Below, one piece after another: positions 18,411 to 26,059 of a stretch of 64,000 nt of DNA. A program made the position numbers and the translations under genes. The DNA is from Chloroflexaceae bacterium (GTDB lineage Bacteria; Chloroflexota; Chloroflexia; Chloroflexales; Chloroflexaceae), in NCBI GenBank assembly GCA_012031225.1, contig JAAUTZ010000001.1, positions 1 to 64,000 of the forward strand. Direction: 5' to 3'. Position 1 is the stretch's first letter. Every line of letters starts with the position of its first letter. Below the pieces are notes generated by a model. The model was not told the DNA's origin and made no database searches. It worked only from the letters and a program-made list of their open reading frames with translations.

Positions 18411-19397
18411 TCAGTTCTCGCCGGTGCCCGGCAGCACCTCGACCAGTGCCAGCGCAACGAGCAGACTATTGCGCCCGAAGGCAGTGATCTGATGCCGTCC
18501 AGCGGGGAAGCGGGTTGCCTCAAGCGTGAGACTGAAGCCGAAGTTGCCATCCTGATCGGTGCGGACTTCTTGCAGTTGCACCACCACCCCATCATTGAGG
18601 GTCATCCAGACACTCACGCGCTCATCAGCGGCGTAGTTCTGCCCTTCGATGCGGATCGTCTCAGCTTGGCGCACCTGCGACGGATTGACGAACAGGACGG
18701 GCAGATCGAAGATGGGCAGTTGCCCGCGCGTCAGGAAGAAATCTACGATACCCGTGAGCTGGCTGCGATTGCCGAAGGCGGTGAGTTGGTAGGCTCCTTC
18801 GGGGTAGGCACTGTCGAGCGTGAGGGTGAAACGGAAGTTACCATCCCGATCCGCAATCACAAAGCCCTGATCCTCAATCGTCTGGGTGGGCAAGTTGATC
18901 CATAGCGAGATGCGTTCGCGGGCCTCAAAGCCCCTGCCAATGAAGATGAACTCGTCGCCCTGTTCCAGCACGCTGGATGACTCCAGCGTCACGCTGACGC
19001 TCGTATCGGGCGGCACGCCCTCGCCGAGCGTCAACTCAAACAGGGCGGTGGCGCGTGCGCCGCTCAGGTTGCCGCGTGCGCTGAAGGCATATTGCCCCTG
19101 TGGGCGAGTCGCAGCCATGCGGTACTCAAGCACCAGATCGCCCGTCAGTGAGGCTTTGTAATCACCGATAGTTTCTGTCGCAAAGTTCGGCAGGGTGAGC
19201 CAGAGGGTGATGCTTTCTTCAGGTTGGAAGCCGGCCAGCGTCAATGTCACGCTGCTATTCTGCGGGGCAACTTCGGGCTGCACCGTGAGCGACGCGCTCG
19301 CTTGGGCGTGGGTCGGCTGGATTGGCCGTGAGCCAAGCAATAGGGCAAGGATCAAGAGTGGGATCAATCCGGCAGCGGTATATGGCAGATAACGCAT
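18411..19397 (-). CDS. Secreted protein with three Ig/IPT-like repeats
   Basis: The 328-residue product has a signal peptide (YTAAGLIPLLILALLLGSR, cleavage near THA-QA). Three repeats of about 100 residues follow, each with a pattern of a short VxPxxxxxxxxxxxxxGF start, then E-x-I-x-L-W and a closing AYQLTAFGN-like strand (residues about 33, 135 and 235). These look like all-beta Ig or IPT/TIG-like domains, as in the six-repeat protein at 45321. AAGGAG before the ATG at 19397 decides the start over an earlier in-frame ATG. It is co-transcribed with the glycosyltransferase. Role unknown; a surface or periplasmic glycoprotein is possible from the pairing. Confidence 0.78.
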   Translation of the reverse strand: MRYLPYTAAGLIPLLILALLLGSRPIQPTHAQASASLTVQPEVAPQNSSVTLTLAGFQPEESITLWLTLPNFATETIGDYKASLTGDLVLEYRMAATRPQGQYAFSARGNLSGARATALFELTLGEGVPPDTSVSVTLESSSVLEQGDEFIFIGRGFEARERISLWINLPTQTIEDQGFVIADRDGNFRFTLTLDSAYPEGAYQLTAFGNRSQLTGIVDFFLTRGQLPIFDLPVLFVNPSQVRQAETIRIEGQNYAADERVSVWMTLNDGVVVQLQEVRTDQDGNFGFSLTLEATRFPAGRHQITAFGRNSLLVALALVEVLPGTGEN

Positions 19398-19582
19398 GAG
19401 GTCACTCCTTGATGATGGATGGATGTTGGGCATGGCCCGACTGGGCGCAGCGCATCCCAAACAGTATATCTTTCGCGCTCGGAGCTATGATACCACTGCA
19501 CAGCGGTGCGTCAAGCGGGGAGCGAGGTGGGAGCACGGCGGCGGGGACAGGATCAATGCCGTCTCGTACTGGCCCAGCTCTG

Positions 19583-19900
19583 CTAGACGATTGGCTCAGC
19601 CCCCACCGCTGCCGCAGGGCGGGCGGCAATGACGGGCAGATCCGGCTCGACAAGCTGCTCAACCAGATCAAGAATGCGCTGTCCGGTATCGCTCACATGC
19701 GCGAGGAGCGCAAGCTGGTGTTCGCTGAGCGGTTGCCCCGGCGCAGGGCGCAGGGCGCGATCTATGCCCACCATAAAACATAGCTCCTGCCGGATGCGCT
19801 CACTCAACAAGGCAAGGCGTTGCTGCTCGGCGGCGTGTTGATATGCCAGCTGCTGCTCCAACTCAGCGACGTGCTGCCGCAGGTGATGTAGTTCAACCAT
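19583..19900 (-). CDS. Small coiled-coil protein, unknown function
   Basis: I do not recognise this family. The 105-residue protein is largely helical: a heptad-rich N-terminal half (HHLRQHVAELEQQLAYQHAAEQ) shortened here for length, a middle helix LSERIRQELCFMVGI, and a C-terminal helix ILDLVEQLVEPDLPV with an Ala/Pro tail. AGGAAA before the ATG at 19900 supports this start. It is the last gene of the minus-strand run that begins with the kinase at 25895, so it may belong to the phospho-signalling operon, though 113 bp separate it from its neighbour. Confidence 0.6.
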   Translation of the reverse strand: MVELHHLRQHVAELEQQLAYQHAAEQQRLALLSERIRQELCFMVGIDRALRPAPGQPLSEHQLALLAHVSDTGQRILDLVEQLVEPDLPVIAARPAAAVGAEPIV

Positions 19901-20013
19901 GATGTTTTCCTGTTCTAGGTTGTGCCCTGATGATGTTGTCACGACAAATTACCCCATGCATTGCCATACCCTCGCGCACCGCATCAGCCTGTAGCGCGTG
20001 CCCAGCCCCATGC

Positions 20014-20259
20014 TCATGTGCGGAAGAAGTCAATCACGCTCCCGCGTTCTTCTTCCGACGGCATCAACTCCAAGAAGGTGATCCGATGCCACGGATAGAT
20101 CACCGCCTGTACGCCGGGTGCAATCCCCGCCACGTCTTTACCATCCCGCTTGCGGAGGTTGCTGACTTTAATAAACAGATCGCCCGGTTGCGGATCGTTA
20201 TCAATCTCGCCAACCACCGGATCTTCGCCAGATAAGTGCAAGATAACTTTTCGGGCCAT
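20014..20259 (-). CDS. Small beta-rich protein, possibly Sm-like fold, unknown function
   Basis: The 81-residue product begins MARKVILHLSGEDPVVGEID, with a strong ribosome site (AAAGGAG, 8 nt). The pattern of short strands, a Gly-Glu turn, DLFIKVSNLRKRDG and the closing VIYPWHRITFLEL resembles a small beta-barrel of the Sm/Hfq kind, where a late strand often reads ITxLE. That resemblance is weak and by eye. It follows the zinc-ribbon FHA gene by 72 bp on the same strand and is probably in its operon. Lysine/arginine content is moderate, so RNA binding is possible but not shown. Confidence 0.68.
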   Translation of the reverse strand: MARKVILHLSGEDPVVGEIDNDPQPGDLFIKVSNLRKRDGKDVAGIAPGVQAVIYPWHRITFLELMPSEEERGSVIDFFRT

Positions 20260-20331
20260 ACGGATTACTCCTTTCACAGCTTGAGCGATAGGACGCGGCG
20301 GTAGGCGGGCTGACCCTACGGCCTGCGTGGG

Positions 20332-20829
20332 TTATGGGTGGATCTCAACCCGCAGGAGCAGCGTCCCAAATTTCAGTTCATCCCCATGATGCAACGTCAA
20401 TGGTTGTTGCGGGTGTACCCGCTGATTATTCACGAAGGTTCCATTCGCACTTTCGAGGTCTTCAACGGTACAGTTGCTCTCAGAAACCGCGATCATGGCG
20501 TGGCGACGCGAAACGCCCGCATCATAGCCACCGTAGTTGCCGAGATCAATGTCGGGAATGATGCCGCGTTTCTGATCGGTTCGGCCTACTAGCAAGATTG
20601 TATTCGGTTCGAGCTGCAAGCGTCGCCCATCATGCACCAACACCAGACTCATGCCGGTTGGGTTGTAGGCGGGGGGCGCGGCGGCAGAGGAAGGAACTGT
20701 TTTATCCGGCTCATCCAGCGTTGTCGTCGTCTCTTGCCGACGCTGCCGCCCGATCAGGCTAGCCCCACAATCGGTACAAAAGATTGCCCCATCCATTTGT
20801 TGTGCGTCGCAGTTCCAACAGCGTTGCAT
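20332..20829 (-). CDS. Zinc-ribbon FHA domain protein
   Basis: The 165-residue protein starts with a four-cysteine zinc ribbon (CWNCDAQQMDGAIFCTDCG, residues 4-22). A variable linker follows, then an FHA domain (about residues 65-160) with the phosphothreonine-binding landmarks: GR in LLVGRTD, SRRH in GVSRRHAMI and NGT in SANGTFVNNQ. FHA domains bind phosphothreonine peptides, choosing mainly by the residue three places after the Thr. It sits in an operon with a Ser/Thr kinase, PP2C phosphatase and VWA protein, so it is the likely reader of kinase marks. Stop of the VWA gene is 40 bp upstream. Confidence 0.92.
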   Translation of the reverse strand: MQRCWNCDAQQMDGAIFCTDCGASLIGRQRRQETTTTLDEPDKTVPSSAAAPPAYNPTGMSLVLVHDGRRLQLEPNTILLVGRTDQKRGIIPDIDLGNYGGYDAGVSRRHAMIAVSESNCTVEDLESANGTFVNNQRVHPQQPLTLHHGDELKFGTLLLRVEIHP

Positions 20830-20869
20830 AGTTCTATCTCAATTTATCTGTGGCTCATCGCATCGTGCA

Positions 20870-22126
20870 TTACGATTTGCCCATCAAGCCGCGTGTGCCA
20901 TACTTAATCCGCTTGCGGCCTTCGGCTGTAGTTACCCCCGATTGCAGCATCAAGGTTGCTTCTTCTTCCACCGTGCGGGCCAGCTCAGTCTCACCGGCCT
21001 CAAACAAGCGTGTGCCAGCCATCCGCAGGCGGGCCGTCGCTTCTTCAATATCGCCCGCTTCCATCGCTTGCCATGCCCGCGACTGGAGCCGATACGCCAC
21101 GACTCGTTCAAGCCATTGCTTCACGTTGGGGTTGATCTGATCGTGCTTAGCGGCTTCTTGGGGCGAGCGCACAGGCACTTGGATCGTGGTTGCCGCAACT
21201 TGCTGTTGAGCATTGTCATCGGGCACGGTGTAACGAATGGCGATCTGGAGCACGGGATGATCGCCAACCGGCAGCGGTGGCACAACCATCTCGATCAGAA
21301 AGGCTTGTGTATCGCCACTTGGCCAGTCGCCGAGATTGCCGGTCCACGTTTGGGTCTGCTCCTCAATGATGCTGATCGGGGCAATGAAGGGGCGCACCCG
21401 ATCCAGTGCCCGCAGCATGCCATCGCCGCGCAGCTTGGCATACAGCTTGACACTCTGCGCGAAGGTGGCGTGCATACGCTGCAACTCTTCGGCAAACATC
21501 TGCGTGACTTCTTTGGCAGAGGTGATGTAATGTGCGCGGCTATTCTCGTGGGCGGCCATTGTTTCGAGCAGATCTTCATTCCACTCGCTGCCCATCCCAA
21601 GAACCGTCATGCCGATGCGCCGCTCTTGGGCCCGCCGCGCAATCTGGACACAGCGGCTTTCGTCGCCGTAGGTGCGCCCATCCGTGAGCAGCATAATCCG
21701 GCTAATGCCGCGGGTCATCCCAATCCGGCGGACTTCTTGCACGGCCATCGCTAGCCCGGTTGCCATTTCGGTGCCGCCTGCTGCTTCAATACCACTGACC
21801 TTGAGTTTGAGGTTGGCTTTGTCGGTGACCCGCTGGGCCGGAATCACAATGTCGGCGCGGTCATTAAAGGTCACAAGCGCGAAGTAGTCTTCGCTGGACA
21901 TATGATCAATGATGCGGTGGGTGGCATCTTTGACTTGATTGAGGCGTTCGCCGCGCATGGAGGAGCTACGGTCTACTACGAGGCATAGGCAGAGCGGGAG
22001 CTTAGAATCGGTACGGACAACCGCTTGGGGGTTCGCTTCGAGCAACGCATAGATCAATTGCGGCTCAGTGCTTGTCGGCAGCACCGGGCGGCTGATACTC
22101 CATTGCAGATGAATATCAGATTTCAT
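20870..22126 (-). CDS. VWA domain protein of the phospho-signalling operon
   Basis: The 418-residue soluble protein has a von Willebrand A domain at about 45-225. The metal-binding MIDAS site is intact: DRSSS (residues 52-56, DxSxS), Thr in GGTEMATG and Asp in MLLTDGRTYG. The C-terminal part has a beta region and a helical region (LERVVAYRLQSRAWQAMEAG), often called the VIT/VWA-C arrangement. The frame is open upstream to 22570, but that stretch is the phosphatase gene in another frame. The true ATG at 22126 overlaps the phosphatase TGA as ATGA, so the two are translated together. In related systems such VWA proteins are scaffold partners of a kinase-phosphatase pair. Confidence 0.92.
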   Translation of the reverse strand: MKSDIHLQWSISRPVLPTSTEPQLIYALLEANPQAVVRTDSKLPLCLCLVVDRSSSMRGERLNQVKDATHRIIDHMSSEDYFALVTFNDRADIVIPAQRVTDKANLKLKVSGIEAAGGTEMATGLAMAVQEVRRIGMTRGISRIMLLTDGRTYGDESRCVQIARRAQERRIGMTVLGMGSEWNEDLLETMAAHENSRAHYITSAKEVTQMFAEELQRMHATFAQSVKLYAKLRGDGMLRALDRVRPFIAPISIIEEQTQTWTGNLGDWPSGDTQAFLIEMVVPPLPVGDHPVLQIAIRYTVPDDNAQQQVAATTIQVPVRSPQEAAKHDQINPNVKQWLERVVAYRLQSRAWQAMEAGDIEEATARLRMAGTRLFEAGETELARTVEEEATLMLQSGVTTAEGRKRIKYGTRGLMGKS

Positions 22127-23562
22127 AGCGTTACTCTTTCTGCGATTGGGAACGTAACCACAAGAGCCGTAATATTGTCTTCGCCGCCGGCAAGGTTGGC
22201 ACGGGCAATCAGTTCGTGGCAGGTATCTTGAGGCCAGATGGTGTGCTGCATAACGTGGGTAAGCTGGGCATCCGTGAGCATGCCCCACAGCCCGTCGCTG
22301 CACAGCAGCAGGTGCGATGCCGTGCCAATCGGTTGGTACACAAAGTCCACCACGACATCGGGCTGCTGCCCAATAGCGCGATAGAGTTGATTGCGCTGCG
22401 GGTGCGTGTGGGCCTGTTCGGGGGTGATCTGCCCCAATTCGACAAACCGCGCAACCATCGAGTGATCGGTGGTAATCTGTTGCAACTGCCCATGCTCCAA
22501 TAGGTACGCCCGTGAGTCGCCGACGTGGGCGACATACAACGCCCGCCCCACCAATAGGGCGGCGGTACACGTTGTGCCCATATCGGTGCCGTGCTGTTGG
22601 GCGTGTTCCCAGATCACCTGATTGGCATACTGCACCGCTTCAATCATCAAGGTTTGCAGCACTGTGGTCGTGTTATCTTCCATCACGGGCAGCATAAATT
22701 GGCTGACCACCGACTCGGCGACGGCGTGAACGGCTAAGCGGCTGGCTAAGCCGCCCGCTTCGTGCCCGCCCATCCCATCTGCGACAACAAACAAGCCCAA
22801 AGGCAGATCGGCTCCTTCACGCGGCAAGCTGGAGAGCATGCCAAACCCGCTATCTTGATTCTCGCGCCGTTGCCGTCCGATGTCGCGCAGCACCGCAAAG
22901 GCTAGCCCCTGCTGGGTGGGTTGCACCTGCTCCAGCGGCGACAGCCGATCCGTATCCAATGGGGGGTCGCAGTCTGGGGCGGGGGGCACAACAGGCGGCA
23001 CCGGTGCGGCAGTGCGATAGTGGGTGAGCAGTTCATCATCGAACGTTTGCAGGCGATGTTCGTCAAGCGGGGCAGTATCGCTACCACGTTCGCGGGGCGT
23101 GGGCGGATCGGCGGGTGGGGCTTCCTCATTTACTTCAGGGGTGTGCTGGGTTGGCGAGGCAAGTCCGAGCAGTTCATCATCATCCGGCGCAGCATCAGGA
23201 GTATTATCCTGCTCAGCGGCCATATCAGCTAGGGCGAGTTGCAGGGCTTCATTGATGTCGGCTTCAGCTGCGGCAGCATCAGGTACACGTTGCAAAGCTC
23301 CATTGATGTCGGCTTCAGCTACGACAGCATCAGGTACAAGTTGCAAAGCTCCATTGATGTCGGCTTCAGCTGCGGCAGCATCAGGTGCAAGCAGCTGTGG
23401 GCCGAGCGGCGCGGTTGGCGCAGGGACAGGCTCCTGCGGCGATGGGGCAGCTGGCGCAGCAAGTGGCGTTGTTCCGCGTGTACCGGATGAATCAGGAGAT
23501 ACCGCCGGAACGATGGCTTGTTCTGTCTCTGAGCATTGCTGTTGGGACACACGCATCCCCAT
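22123..23562 (-). CDS. PP2C-type Ser/Thr protein phosphatase with repetitive N-terminal region
   Basis: The last 250 residues of this 479-residue protein are a PP2C phosphatase that removes phosphate from Ser/Thr with two metals. Motifs are DIGRQRRENQDS, VVADGMGGHEAGG, HVGDSRAYLL, TDHSMVARFVELG, CSDGLWGML and GGEDNITALVV, all with the metal-binding Asp residues. Residues 1-220 are acidic, Ala/Pro-rich and disordered-looking, and contain three tandem 17-residue repeats (PDAxxAEADINGALQ-like, near 54-104). It should oppose the kinase encoded 74 bp upstream. The start is uncertain because the ribosome site is weak and the N-terminus is low complexity. Confidence 0.93.
   Translation of the reverse strand: MGMRVSQQQCSETEQAIVPAVSPDSSGTRGTTPLAAPAAPSPQEPVPAPTAPLGPQLLAPDAAAAEADINGALQLVPDAVVAEADINGALQRVPDAAAAEADINEALQLALADMAAEQDNTPDAAPDDDELLGLASPTQHTPEVNEEAPPADPPTPRERGSDTAPLDEHRLQTFDDELLTHYRTAAPVPPVVPPAPDCDPPLDTDRLSPLEQVQPTQQGLAFAVLRDIGRQRRENQDSGFGMLSSLPREGADLPLGLFVVADGMGGHEAGGLASRLAVHAVAESVVSQFMLPVMEDNTTTVLQTLMIEAVQYANQVIWEHAQQHGTDMGTTCTAALLVGRALYVAHVGDSRAYLLEHGQLQQITTDHSMVARFVELGQITPEQAHTHPQRNQLYRAIGQQPDVVVDFVYQPIGTASHLLLCSDGLWGMLTDAQLTHVMQHTIWPQDTCHELIARANLAGGEDNITALVVTFPIAERVTL
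23251..23400. repeat. 51-bp tandem repeat, three copies, inside the phosphatase gene
   Basis: Copies begin at about 23251, 23302 and 23353, each opening ATTGATGTCGGCTTCAGCT on the plus strand. The 51-bp period keeps the reading frame and encodes a 17-residue acidic repeat. The copies differ at only a few bases, so the array is recent. Confidence 0.85.
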
Positions 23563-23636
23563 TTCTTGTATCGCATAGCTTACAAACTGACCGATCAGAT
23601 AGGCGTGGCGGTAGCCGCTTGCGCCTATCGCGTTCG

Positions 23637-25895
23637 CTATGCCCGTAGTGCATACACCTTATGATCGAGTGAGCCGATATACACCACATCGTTGTGGATG
23701 GCGGGCGTAGAGACTACCGGTGCACCTGTCGGGAAGACCCAGACCAAGCGTCCATCACTAGCATCTACCGCATACACATTGCCATCAATTGCACCAATGT
23801 AGATGCGCCCATTGTGGTGGCGCGGCGACGATGTAATCTGGCTGCCCGTTTCATACTTCCATGCCAAGCGGCCATTCTTCCGTTCGACACCATAGAGGTT
23901 GCCATCGGCACTCCCGACATACACGCGACTGCCAACCACAATCGGCGACGAGTTGACCGCATGGCCAGTGCGGAACCGCCACATGGCAAAGCCGCCTTCG
24001 GCATCCAGCGCGTAGAGGTTGTTGTCCGATGAGCCAACATAGATAGCTCCTTCGTGATAGATCGGGCTAGAGATGACCGGCTGCTGCGTGCGTTGTTTCC
24101 AGCGCACGCCGCCGTTTTTGGTTTCGATGCAGTAGACGAATCCATCACCACCGCCGATGTAGAGCGCATCGCCATTGATCCATGCCGTCGAGCGTGCGGG
24201 CGACCAGAAGCGATACTTCCAGAGCAATGAACCGCGTGCGCCATCGAGGGCATACAAGTGCAGATCATCGGAGGAGACAAACACCCGTCGCTCATGCACT
24301 CGCGGTGAAGAGCGGATCGGCTGCTCGGTGCGGAAGGTCCACAGCGGCTTGCCGGTGCGGGTATCCAAGCCATACACCTTGCCATCTTCGGAACCCGTAA
24401 TGACAATATTTTCCCACACATCGGCGGTAGAGGGGATGCCGCCTTCGGTAGCATACTTCCAGCGAAATTCGCCGCGCAACGCATCGAGGGCGTAGAGGTT
24501 GGTATCGTAGCAGCCGATGTAGAGCATATTGTCTTGGATGCGGGGCGAAGAACGCACTTCATCTTCGCAAGTAAATGACCAGACCAACTCGGTGCTTGGC
24601 GCACTGCCCCGGCTGCGTACTGATGCAGCGGCAGTACTAGCGGAACCGGCACTGCTCGCATATGGTGAACTATTCGCACCACCCCCTACACCAAGACTCA
24701 CGAACGCCTGCTTTAGATCTTCCGCCGTTACCCAACGTTTCGCCATATCATATTCGAGGGCTTTCTCAACAATCCCCGCAACATCGGCGGAGATGGCCGC
24801 ATTGAGATTGCGGATTGGGCGTTCGTGAAAGGTAAACGGCGTTTGCAGACGCGGATCATCATTGGTGAGGAGGTGATGCAGCGTTGCGCCGAGCGCGTAA
24901 ATATCGCTCTGGGCTTCAGCAATGCCACGATACTGTTCGGGTGGGGCATAGCCCTCAGTGCCAATCATCGTCCCTTTCACGCCGCCCCGTTCGAGCAGAC
25001 GGGCGATCCCGAAGTCAATCAGCACAATCCGCTCTTCGGGCGTAACGACAATGTTGGAAGGCTTCATATCCCGAAAGACAATCGGGTTCGGTTGCAGATT
25101 GTGGAGATACGAAAGCACGTCGCAAATCTGCACCGCCCAATGCACCACCCGCGCTTCGGCAATCGGCTTGCCCGCTTCCTGCAAGACCTGATCCAAGTCT
25201 TGCCCATTGATCAACTCCATCACGAGATAGACGCGCCCGTTCTCCTCAAAGAAGTCGGATACCTTCGGAATCGTGGGGTGGCTCAATGTAGCCAGCAAGC
25301 CCGCTTCACGCTCAAAAAGGCGCAGGTTGAGGGTGCGGGTCTGTGTATCTACGGCACTTTGGTACATCTCTTTGATCGCACAGACACGGGCTTCATTGCC
25401 GAACTTCAAGCGCGTATCGCGCCCACGATAGACCACACTCATGCCCCCGATACCGAGAATATTCTCGATCTGATAGCGTTGCTGGAGCATCGTGCCGGCT
25501 GCAAGGGTCTGCGCGAAGGCGGCTTTCCGCTTGCCCCCCTCATCATCATTGGCGGCGGCTTTGCGGGCAGGGGGCGGAGTGCCGTGGGCGGGCGGGGCTG
25601 GCTTCGTAGCGGGGGCGACAGGGGTGACATTTTTCGTCGCATCAGTAGCAGGCAGGGGTGCGTCACCACTCACATTTTTCGTCGCATCTTCTGGGAGCTG
25701 CGTTAACCCTGCACCGACATGCTTGGTTGTGCCGCCTGCAATACGCGGCAGCGAACCGCCCGGAGCGGGTGCAGCCGGGGGAATATTCTTGGTTGCGTCA
25801 TCTGGTATCTGGGCAGTCTCATCCGGCACAGCCTGCGGCGGCTCGGCTGCACCTTGTCCAAGGATCTTCGTGCCACCTTTTTTAATCAACGACAT
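23637..25895 (-). CDS. Ser/Thr protein kinase with C-terminal PQQ-type beta-propeller
   Basis: The 752-residue protein has three parts. Residues 1-130 are a disordered tail with five Thr-Lys-x-[I/L/V] motifs (Thr 9, 35, 57, 72, 87), four of them in DATKN/GTTKH contexts. Residues about 138-400 are a Hanks-type kinase: GIGGMSVVYRG, Lys175 in CAIKEM, catalytic loop FRDMKPSN (Asp277, with Phe where His is usual), DFG at 294-296, and GTEGYAPPEQY. A Ser/Ala-rich linker precedes residues 440-752, a beta-propeller of seven or so PQQ/Trp-docking repeats (YIGSxDxxxYALDAxxGxxxW). There is no membrane helix, so it acts in the cytosol. It is the first gene of the operon. Confidence 0.94.
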   Translation of the reverse strand: MSLIKKGGTKILGQGAAEPPQAVPDETAQIPDDATKNIPPAAPAPGGSLPRIAGGTTKHVGAGLTQLPEDATKNVSGDAPLPATDATKNVTPVAPATKPAPPAHGTPPPARKAAANDDEGGKRKAAFAQTLAAGTMLQQRYQIENILGIGGMSVVYRGRDTRLKFGNEARVCAIKEMYQSAVDTQTRTLNLRLFEREAGLLATLSHPTIPKVSDFFEENGRVYLVMELINGQDLDQVLQEAGKPIAEARVVHWAVQICDVLSYLHNLQPNPIVFRDMKPSNIVVTPEERIVLIDFGIARLLERGGVKGTMIGTEGYAPPEQYRGIAEAQSDIYALGATLHHLLTNDDPRLQTPFTFHERPIRNLNAAISADVAGIVEKALEYDMAKRWVTAEDLKQAFVSLGVGGGANSSPYASSAGSASTAAASVRSRGSAPSTELVWSFTCEDEVRSSPRIQDNMLYIGCYDTNLYALDALRGEFRWKYATEGGIPSTADVWENIVITGSEDGKVYGLDTRTGKPLWTFRTEQPIRSSPRVHERRVFVSSDDLHLYALDGARGSLLWKYRFWSPARSTAWINGDALYIGGGDGFVYCIETKNGGVRWKQRTQQPVISSPIYHEGAIYVGSSDNNLYALDAEGGFAMWRFRTGHAVNSSPIVVGSRVYVGSADGNLYGVERKNGRLAWKYETGSQITSSPRHHNGRIYIGAIDGNVYAVDASDGRLVWVFPTGAPVVSTPAIHNDVVYIGSLDHKVYALRA

Positions 25896-26030: not shown

Positions 26031-26059
26031 ATTATAGAGTGTATATGCTCTGGCGGCAA
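26031..26059 (-). promoter_or_regulatory. Promoter of the kinase-phosphatase operon
   Basis: On the minus strand, TTGCCG and TATAAT are 17 bp apart (complement of 26054-26059 and 26031-26036). Transcription would start near 26024, leaving a leader of about 130 nt to the kinase ATG at 25895. The leader can fold a short hairpin (CGAGG / CCTCG). Confidence 0.6.

Follow-up and report, generated by a model that had tools for sequence, protein, structure and literature searches.

A five-gene operon of Chloroflexota proposed as a phosphothreonine writer–eraser–reader switch related to archaeal ArnA–ArnB

Studies of the ArnA–ArnB pair in Sulfolobales have dealt with it as a regulator of the archaellum and in DNA damage. 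In Sulfolobus, threonines in the C-terminal bundle of ArnB are bound by the FHA domain of ArnA once the kinase ArnC has phosphorylated them; the zinc finger of ArnA contacts ArnB whether or not it is phosphorylated, and PP2A acts in opposition (PMC6509490, PMC12852372). In another system, the kinase PknG autophosphorylates its disordered N-terminal tail, recruiting the FHA proteins GarA/OdhI (PMC8546545). Here we analyse a 64,000-nucleotide stretch of DNA from a Chloroflexaceae bacterium (assembly GCA_012031225.1, contig JAAUTZ010000001.1, positions 1 to 64,000), hereafter the window, which belongs to a draft genome of 4.2 Mb. Its minus strand encodes, from 25895 to 20014, a kinase with a propeller, a PP2C phosphatase, a VWA protein, a zinc-ribbon FHA protein and a small protein, P81. 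These five genes probably constitute one cytosolic phosphothreonine writer–eraser–reader switch that is vertically inherited in Chloroflexota and related to archaeal ArnA–ArnB. They are encoded as follows:

23637 to 25895, minus strand: Ser/Thr kinase with a C-terminal propeller of eight PQQ/BamB-type repeats, 752 residues, the writer (Pfam matches given below)
22123 to 23562, minus strand: PP2C-type Ser/Thr phosphatase with a long N-terminal tail, 479 residues, the eraser (NF033484, PF00481)
20870 to 22126, minus strand: ArnB-like VWA protein, 418 residues, in which the metal-ion-dependent adhesion site (MIDAS) is intact and beta strands as well as C-terminal helices are predicted (PF00092, 6.5e-23)
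20332 to 20829, minus strand: ArnA-like zinc-ribbon and FHA protein, 165 residues, the reader (PF00498, 6e-18)
20014 to 20259, minus strand: P81, 81 residues, of an unnamed family for which a small barrel of the Sm/LSm type is weakly predicted; constantly accompanies the kinase and FHA genes

We scored 94 neighbourhoods around P81 homologues, together with the window, using profiles of the five proteins. The complete five-gene order on one strand is found in 51 of these 95 neighbourhoods across Chloroflexota, and the arrangement is therefore not due to chance. Another 17 contain the kinase and P81 only, with P81 directly after the kinase, 9 contain an FHA–P81 pair without a neighbouring kinase and 10 contain P81 alone. 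The remaining neighbourhoods are intermediate, with several located at contig ends. The initial annotation of this DNA had placed writer, eraser, VWA protein and reader in one phospho-signalling operon and had let that proposal depend on gene order in relatives; the order is kept across many families. The kinase tree follows taxonomy, and we thus take the inheritance of the operon to be vertical. Kinases of the two-gene loci form one clade (support 100/98), which is most simply explained by a single loss of PP2C, VWA and FHA. The operon is real, ancient and coherent, and its components are of known kinds.

Since the loci were found via P81, this protein is their constant member by construction, and the unbiased test is co-occurrence across whole genomes. 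In 145 of 150 class genomes the kinase and P81 either occur together or are both missing, 91 having both (one of these, G131, at paralogue level only) and 54 neither. Three genomes have only P81 and two only the kinase, and most of these exceptions are fragmented assemblies. In the phylum as a whole, the P81 profile finds 131 of 400 genomes, with one copy each. These figures bear on a different reading, which we consider somewhat unlikely, in which the kinase–P81 pair is the core of the system and PP2C, VWA and FHA form an insert with a modulatory role. P81 would then be a regulatory subunit of the kinase or the main output, for example as an Sm-like nucleic-acid binder, and FHA docking would be secondary. 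The two-gene loci and the 91/54 co-occurrence speak for such a core, as does the presence of P81, alone among the five, in every arrangement. Against it, the FHA–P81 pairs that have no kinase beside them, and the loci with P81 alone, show that P81 is not strictly bound to the kinase, and co-occurrence is the only one of these arguments that is free of the bias in how the loci were found.

P81 represents an apparently new protein family and is a constant member of the operon, staying with kinase or FHA genes after the rest has been lost; the suggestion made at first annotation, that the protein at 20014 might be a new part of the system, is supported. Its start is most likely the ATG at 20259 rather than the listed 20277, because AAAGGAG precedes this ATG and the relatives start there. 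Conserved positions include H8, E12, P23, N34, R36, D39-G40-K41, P56-W57, R59, E64 and R80, and the two genomes of the genus differ at 22 synonymous and 3 non-synonymous codons, indicating purifying selection. No sequence relatives of P81 were found in Pfam or the PDB, and none in plasmids. The structure models in this study were built on alignments two sequences deep (the window and the same-genus locus L069) and are weak. The P81 model has five strands, and its top 50 Foldseek matches are essentially all Sm/LSm proteins, with a template-modelling score of about 0.5 and E from about 0.04 upward. An Sm-like fold is thus likely, if weakly predicted by this model, and RNA binding by P81 is speculation.

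Some relatives of P81 lie in other settings. FHA–P81 pairs without a neighbouring kinase adjoin NAD kinase and RecN/SMC-like genes in four loci (L185, L193, L178 and L176; families f49 and f46) and PhoU-like genes in four others (L165, L197, L198 and L199; f23). A divergent P81-like protein without the FFR end is encoded beside or near topoisomerase I in L170, L184, L187, L189, L192, L196 and L200 (f33), and these loci often also carry ComM/YifB-like and Big_5-domain genes. The f33 protein may point to an older use of the family that is separate from the operon.

The writer and the eraser both retain their catalytic residues. In the kinase, the Pkinase domain (residues 141-396) is followed by PQQ/BamB-type repeats up to residue 751 (PF00069, 3.3e-39; PF13570, 2.1e-70; PF13360, 1.9e-53), and no transmembrane segment is seen. 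K175, FRD 274-276 and DFG 294-296 are invariant in 70 relatives. All 70 of them have F in place of the H of the catalytic HRD motif; in the window the kinase domain lies at 24708-25475 on the minus strand. A propeller on a Ser/Thr kinase is already known from AfsK and other PQQ-repeat kinases (PMC1262709). The NCBIfam AfsK model gives 184.5 bits with the kinase of the window, below its equivalog cut-off of 1300. PP2C scores above the cut-off of the NCBIfam model NF033484 for Stp1/IreP phosphatases (234.7 bits, cut-off 230) and matches PF00481 (3e-16), and its aspartates 237, 262, 349, 366, 423 and 462 are conserved at 98-100% in relatives.

The FHA/VWA pair is related in sequence to archaeal ArnA/ArnB. 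When the profile of the FHA protein (alignment A4, 31 proteins) is compared with all PDB sequences, ArnA is the best match (5a8i, 4.7e-16; 8s05_C, 5.9e-16), and the alignment spans positions 3-169 of 176, from the zinc ribbon to the FHA domain. G82, R83, S107, R108, H110 and N129 of the FHA protein are conserved at 98-100%, as are C4, C7, C18 and C21. The VWA profile (35 proteins) matches ArnB from the ArnAB complex over the VWA domain (8s05_A, 2.3e-21) and ArnE with 8e-11, with 4fx5 and animal VWA proteins as neighbouring matches. The MIDAS residues D52, S54, S56, T119 and D149 are conserved in VWA relatives. A low-confidence model of the VWA protein places four C-terminal helices within residues 333-413, with a predicted local distance difference test (pLDDT) score mostly of 70-78, and a Foldseek search with this poor model returns 4fx5 first and ArnB second, in full-length alignments with poor superposition.

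This relationship bears on the TerY-P triad of tellurium and stress systems, to which the initial annotation had likened the locus. The triad has the same classes of kinase, phosphatase and VWA protein as found here, linked to Ter (TerD) proteins, and in the window kinase, PP2C and VWA stand together on one strand. The VWA protein here is of another, ArnB-like family, its FHA partner is ArnA-like, and FHA and P81 are constant members. TerD (PF02342) has no match in the whole genome, with control genomes positive, and the TerY-C domain has no Pfam match in the VWA protein of the window and is absent from the 25 families found most often in 35 relatives. The resemblance thus did not hold, and we consider a TerY-P triad very improbable.

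The proposed docking sites for the FHA domain are threonine motifs at three places in the operon:

25626 to 25871, minus strand: disordered N-terminal tail of the kinase with five T-K-x-[I/L/V] motifs (T9, T35, T57, T72 and T87), proposed FHA docking sites (motif counts)
20885 to 20902, minus strand: C-terminal YGTRGL of the VWA protein (T411), proposed phosphorylation and FHA docking site (tail pattern in relatives)
20716 to 20733, minus strand: ETTTTL in the linker of the FHA protein, proposed for self-docking or as a second phosphosite (motif counts)

In 48 kinase tails from full operons, the motif T[KRQH]x[ILMFV] occurs 97 times where 10 are expected (maximum 21 in 1000 shuffles). At +1, +2 and +4, hydrophobic residues are fewer than expected, and the motif with serine in place of threonine is not enriched. 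The number of copies varies from 1 to 8 per kinase tail and the flanks vary as well, which argues against simple descent. Within the first 25 linker residues of the FHA protein, Txx[ILM] is found 53 times in 63 relatives (19.9 expected, maximum 32), and the same signature is found 37 times in PP2C tails (12.6 expected, maximum 25). The tail pattern [YF]xT[RQ]x[LMF] of the VWA protein is present in 56 of 56 relatives; T411 is conserved at 100%, on a par with the MIDAS, R412 and L414 each at 98%, and alignment A3 likewise shows T411 without exception. The 12 usable tails of two-gene kinases hold no motif, which is weak evidence on its own because only 1.2 are expected.

A second, paralogous cluster with the order PP2C–PP2C–kinase (zinc ribbon)–VWA–FHA occurs at L208:3586-11021, L210:3864-11310 and L207:5889-11985 (no kinase seen in L207), and in the genome of the window only its VWA–FHA part is seen (L203:6704-9411, G000:C106). 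The VWA proteins of the paralogous cluster end in YATRRL, and in a group of VWA proteins that is not beside FHA some members lose the threonine.

Such patterns could also arise if T411 and the tail threonines were structural or general kinase recognition sites, with the FHA protein acting on unrelated substrates and the products of the co-transcribed genes working as separate parts. T411 occupies the end of a predicted helix, a position that might be kept invariant for structural reasons, and the basic residue after the threonine may merely reflect the preference of the kinase. The genome (G000) has about 22 matches to protein-kinase domains and 12 to FHA domains, so that cross-talk between phospho-systems is possible. 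On the other side, the hydrophobic preference is found specifically at +3, the same signature occurs in four proteins of the operon, and the VWA paralogues keep their threonine when they are beside FHA. We regard an assembly of separate parts as unlikely.

The switch that we favour would operate by phosphorylation, docking and complex formation. The propeller, which the initial annotation suggested might sense a ligand or partner, would control, possibly with P81, how active the kinase is or where it is located. Once active, the kinase would phosphorylate sites of the form T-x-x-[I/L/M] in its disordered tail, in the C-terminal YGTRxL of the VWA protein and in the FHA linker. The zinc ribbon would already hold the FHA protein loosely on the VWA protein, in the manner of ArnA and ArnB, and the FHA domain would then dock on the phosphorylated VWA protein and kinase tail to give a tight complex. 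PP2C would undo these steps, and the complex would pass the signal on via P81 and/or the MIDAS of the VWA protein. The residues that make this model precisely testable are T411 of the VWA protein, T35, T57, T72 and T87 of the kinase tail, and R83 and S107 of the FHA protein. In a more far-reaching version, which we hold to be decidedly unlikely, the operon would be a bacterial Arn-type switch with P81 as an Sm-like, nucleic-acid-binding output, the propeller kinase controlling RNA or DNA binding via the FHA/VWA complex throughout the phylum.

Several points weigh against the writer–eraser–reader switch as proposed. The sequence relation to ArnB covers the VWA domain only: a profile search with the C-terminal half of the VWA protein alone gives no match to ArnB, and Pfam ArnB_C matches 3 of 35 VWA members with a best E of 0.21 and none in the genome of the window. 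ArnAB uses PP2A and a non-propeller, OB/TPR-like ArnC, as opposed to the PP2C and propeller kinase found here. Among the 48 full-operon kinase tails, 11 are without the strict motif and 5 without even Txx[ILM]. The shuffles used for the motif counts ignore the kinship of the sequences, and since the two-gene kinases fall into one clade, the joint disappearance of FHA/VWA and of the tail motifs counts as a single event. The rule that FHA ligands are read at the +3 position from the phosphothreonine is disputed (PMC4037201). Finally, the fold of P81 is taken from a model with a pLDDT of 64.5 and Foldseek matches at E of about 0.04.

All six minus-strand open reading frames of the initial annotation are present, and the ATGA overlap of PP2C and VWA that it read from the sequence is genuine. 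The remaining intergenic gaps within the five-gene run are 40-75 bases. A scan of genome contigs gave a sole match, a metagenome-assembled genome of the same genus named 'uncultured Chloroflexales bacterium', and comparison of the two genomes of the genus shows in each of the five genes the evolutionary pattern of a real protein. The annotated operon of six genes was thus correct for the five from kinase to P81, which form a real unit, but the sixth gene, encoding a protein of 119 residues, lies outside it. This gene and a promoter-like site upstream of the kinase complete the features of the locus:

19583 to 19942, minus strand: genus-restricted protein of 105-119 residues, resembling the dimerisation hairpin of histidine kinases
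26031 to 26059, minus strand: TTGCCG-17-TATAAT, a promoter-like site ahead of the kinase gene (consensus scan only, 10/12 matches)

Outside the two genomes of this genus the sixth gene does not adjoin the operon, and a relative in genome G011 lies elsewhere (L072). Its start is more likely the ATG at 19900 than the listed 19942, because the G011 homologue aligns only from residue 16. The protein aligns with the dimerisation and histidine phosphotransfer (DHp) hairpin of histidine kinases and is without the phospho-accepting histidine of SHELRTP. Being DHp-like without the histidine and restricted to the genus, it does not bear out the suggestion that the product of 19583 is a part of the system. 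The site at 26059-26031 is the only promoter-like site close upstream of the kinase, and a second one at 19514-19487 precedes the next gene after the operon region. Our scan found no terminator-like sites between the operon genes on the coding strand. Both scans are weak evidence because the numbers of sites are not above those in shuffles. The gene behind the second promoter-like site (18411-19406, minus strand) encodes a protein that looks secreted and contains several copies of an Ig-like PGS domain, and it is followed by a glycosyltransferase gene.

Our literature search, outside whose scope most subscription journals lay, found no paper describing this operon. The five-gene combination, the bacterial ArnA/ArnB-like pair, the common threonine motif and P81 appear to be new in the literature searched. 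An anti-phage defence module using a kinase was also considered, as the kinase domain matches the PD-T4-6 models of PADLOC. These are generic kinase-domain matches, the VWA, FHA and P81 proteins have none, and a single-copy, vertical, phylum-wide distribution is unlike that of defence islands. We reject this candidate and give it next to no credence.

The type VI secretion pathway of PpkA, PppA and Fha likewise brings together a kinase, a PP2C phosphatase, an FHA reader and a VWA domain; as far as the accessible parts of the sources show (PMC3953482, PMC5995506, PMC1262709), it differs in that VWA is fused to the kinase, the context is one of membrane and secretion, and P81 is not among its components. 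AfsK and other PQQ-repeat kinases share with the kinase described here the order of kinase domain and PQQ-type propeller (PMC1262709); AfsK has a different operon and tail, and the kinase of the window scores far under the AfsK cut-off. The PknG–GarA/OdhI system of Actinobacteria provides a direct precedent for a disordered kinase tail that recruits an FHA protein, and the linker found here (ETTASL/ETTTTL) is similar to an ETT motif that lies beside the FHA domain in that system (PMC8546545). PknG has TPRs and no propeller, its system is without VWA, PP2C and P81, and GarA is without a zinc ribbon.

ArnA–ArnB, with the kinases ArnC/ArnD and PP2A, likewise pairs the genes of a zinc-ribbon FHA protein and a VWA protein (PMC6509490, PMC12852372). 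Common to both systems are a Hanks kinase and a phosphatase, as well as C-terminal threonines of the VWA protein as FHA targets, which for the present operon is a proposal. The four C-terminal helices in our low-confidence VWA model resemble the ArnB bundle that bears the phosphothreonines (PMC6509490, PMC12852372), with a single invariant threonine, T411, here as opposed to several in the bundle of ArnB. The present operon differs in being bacterial, in holding the kinase and the phosphatase in the same operon and in having the extra protein P81. If our proposal is correct, ArnA–ArnB would be one case of a wider writer–eraser–reader module, which in Chloroflexota has a dedicated kinase and phosphatase in a phylum-wide operon.

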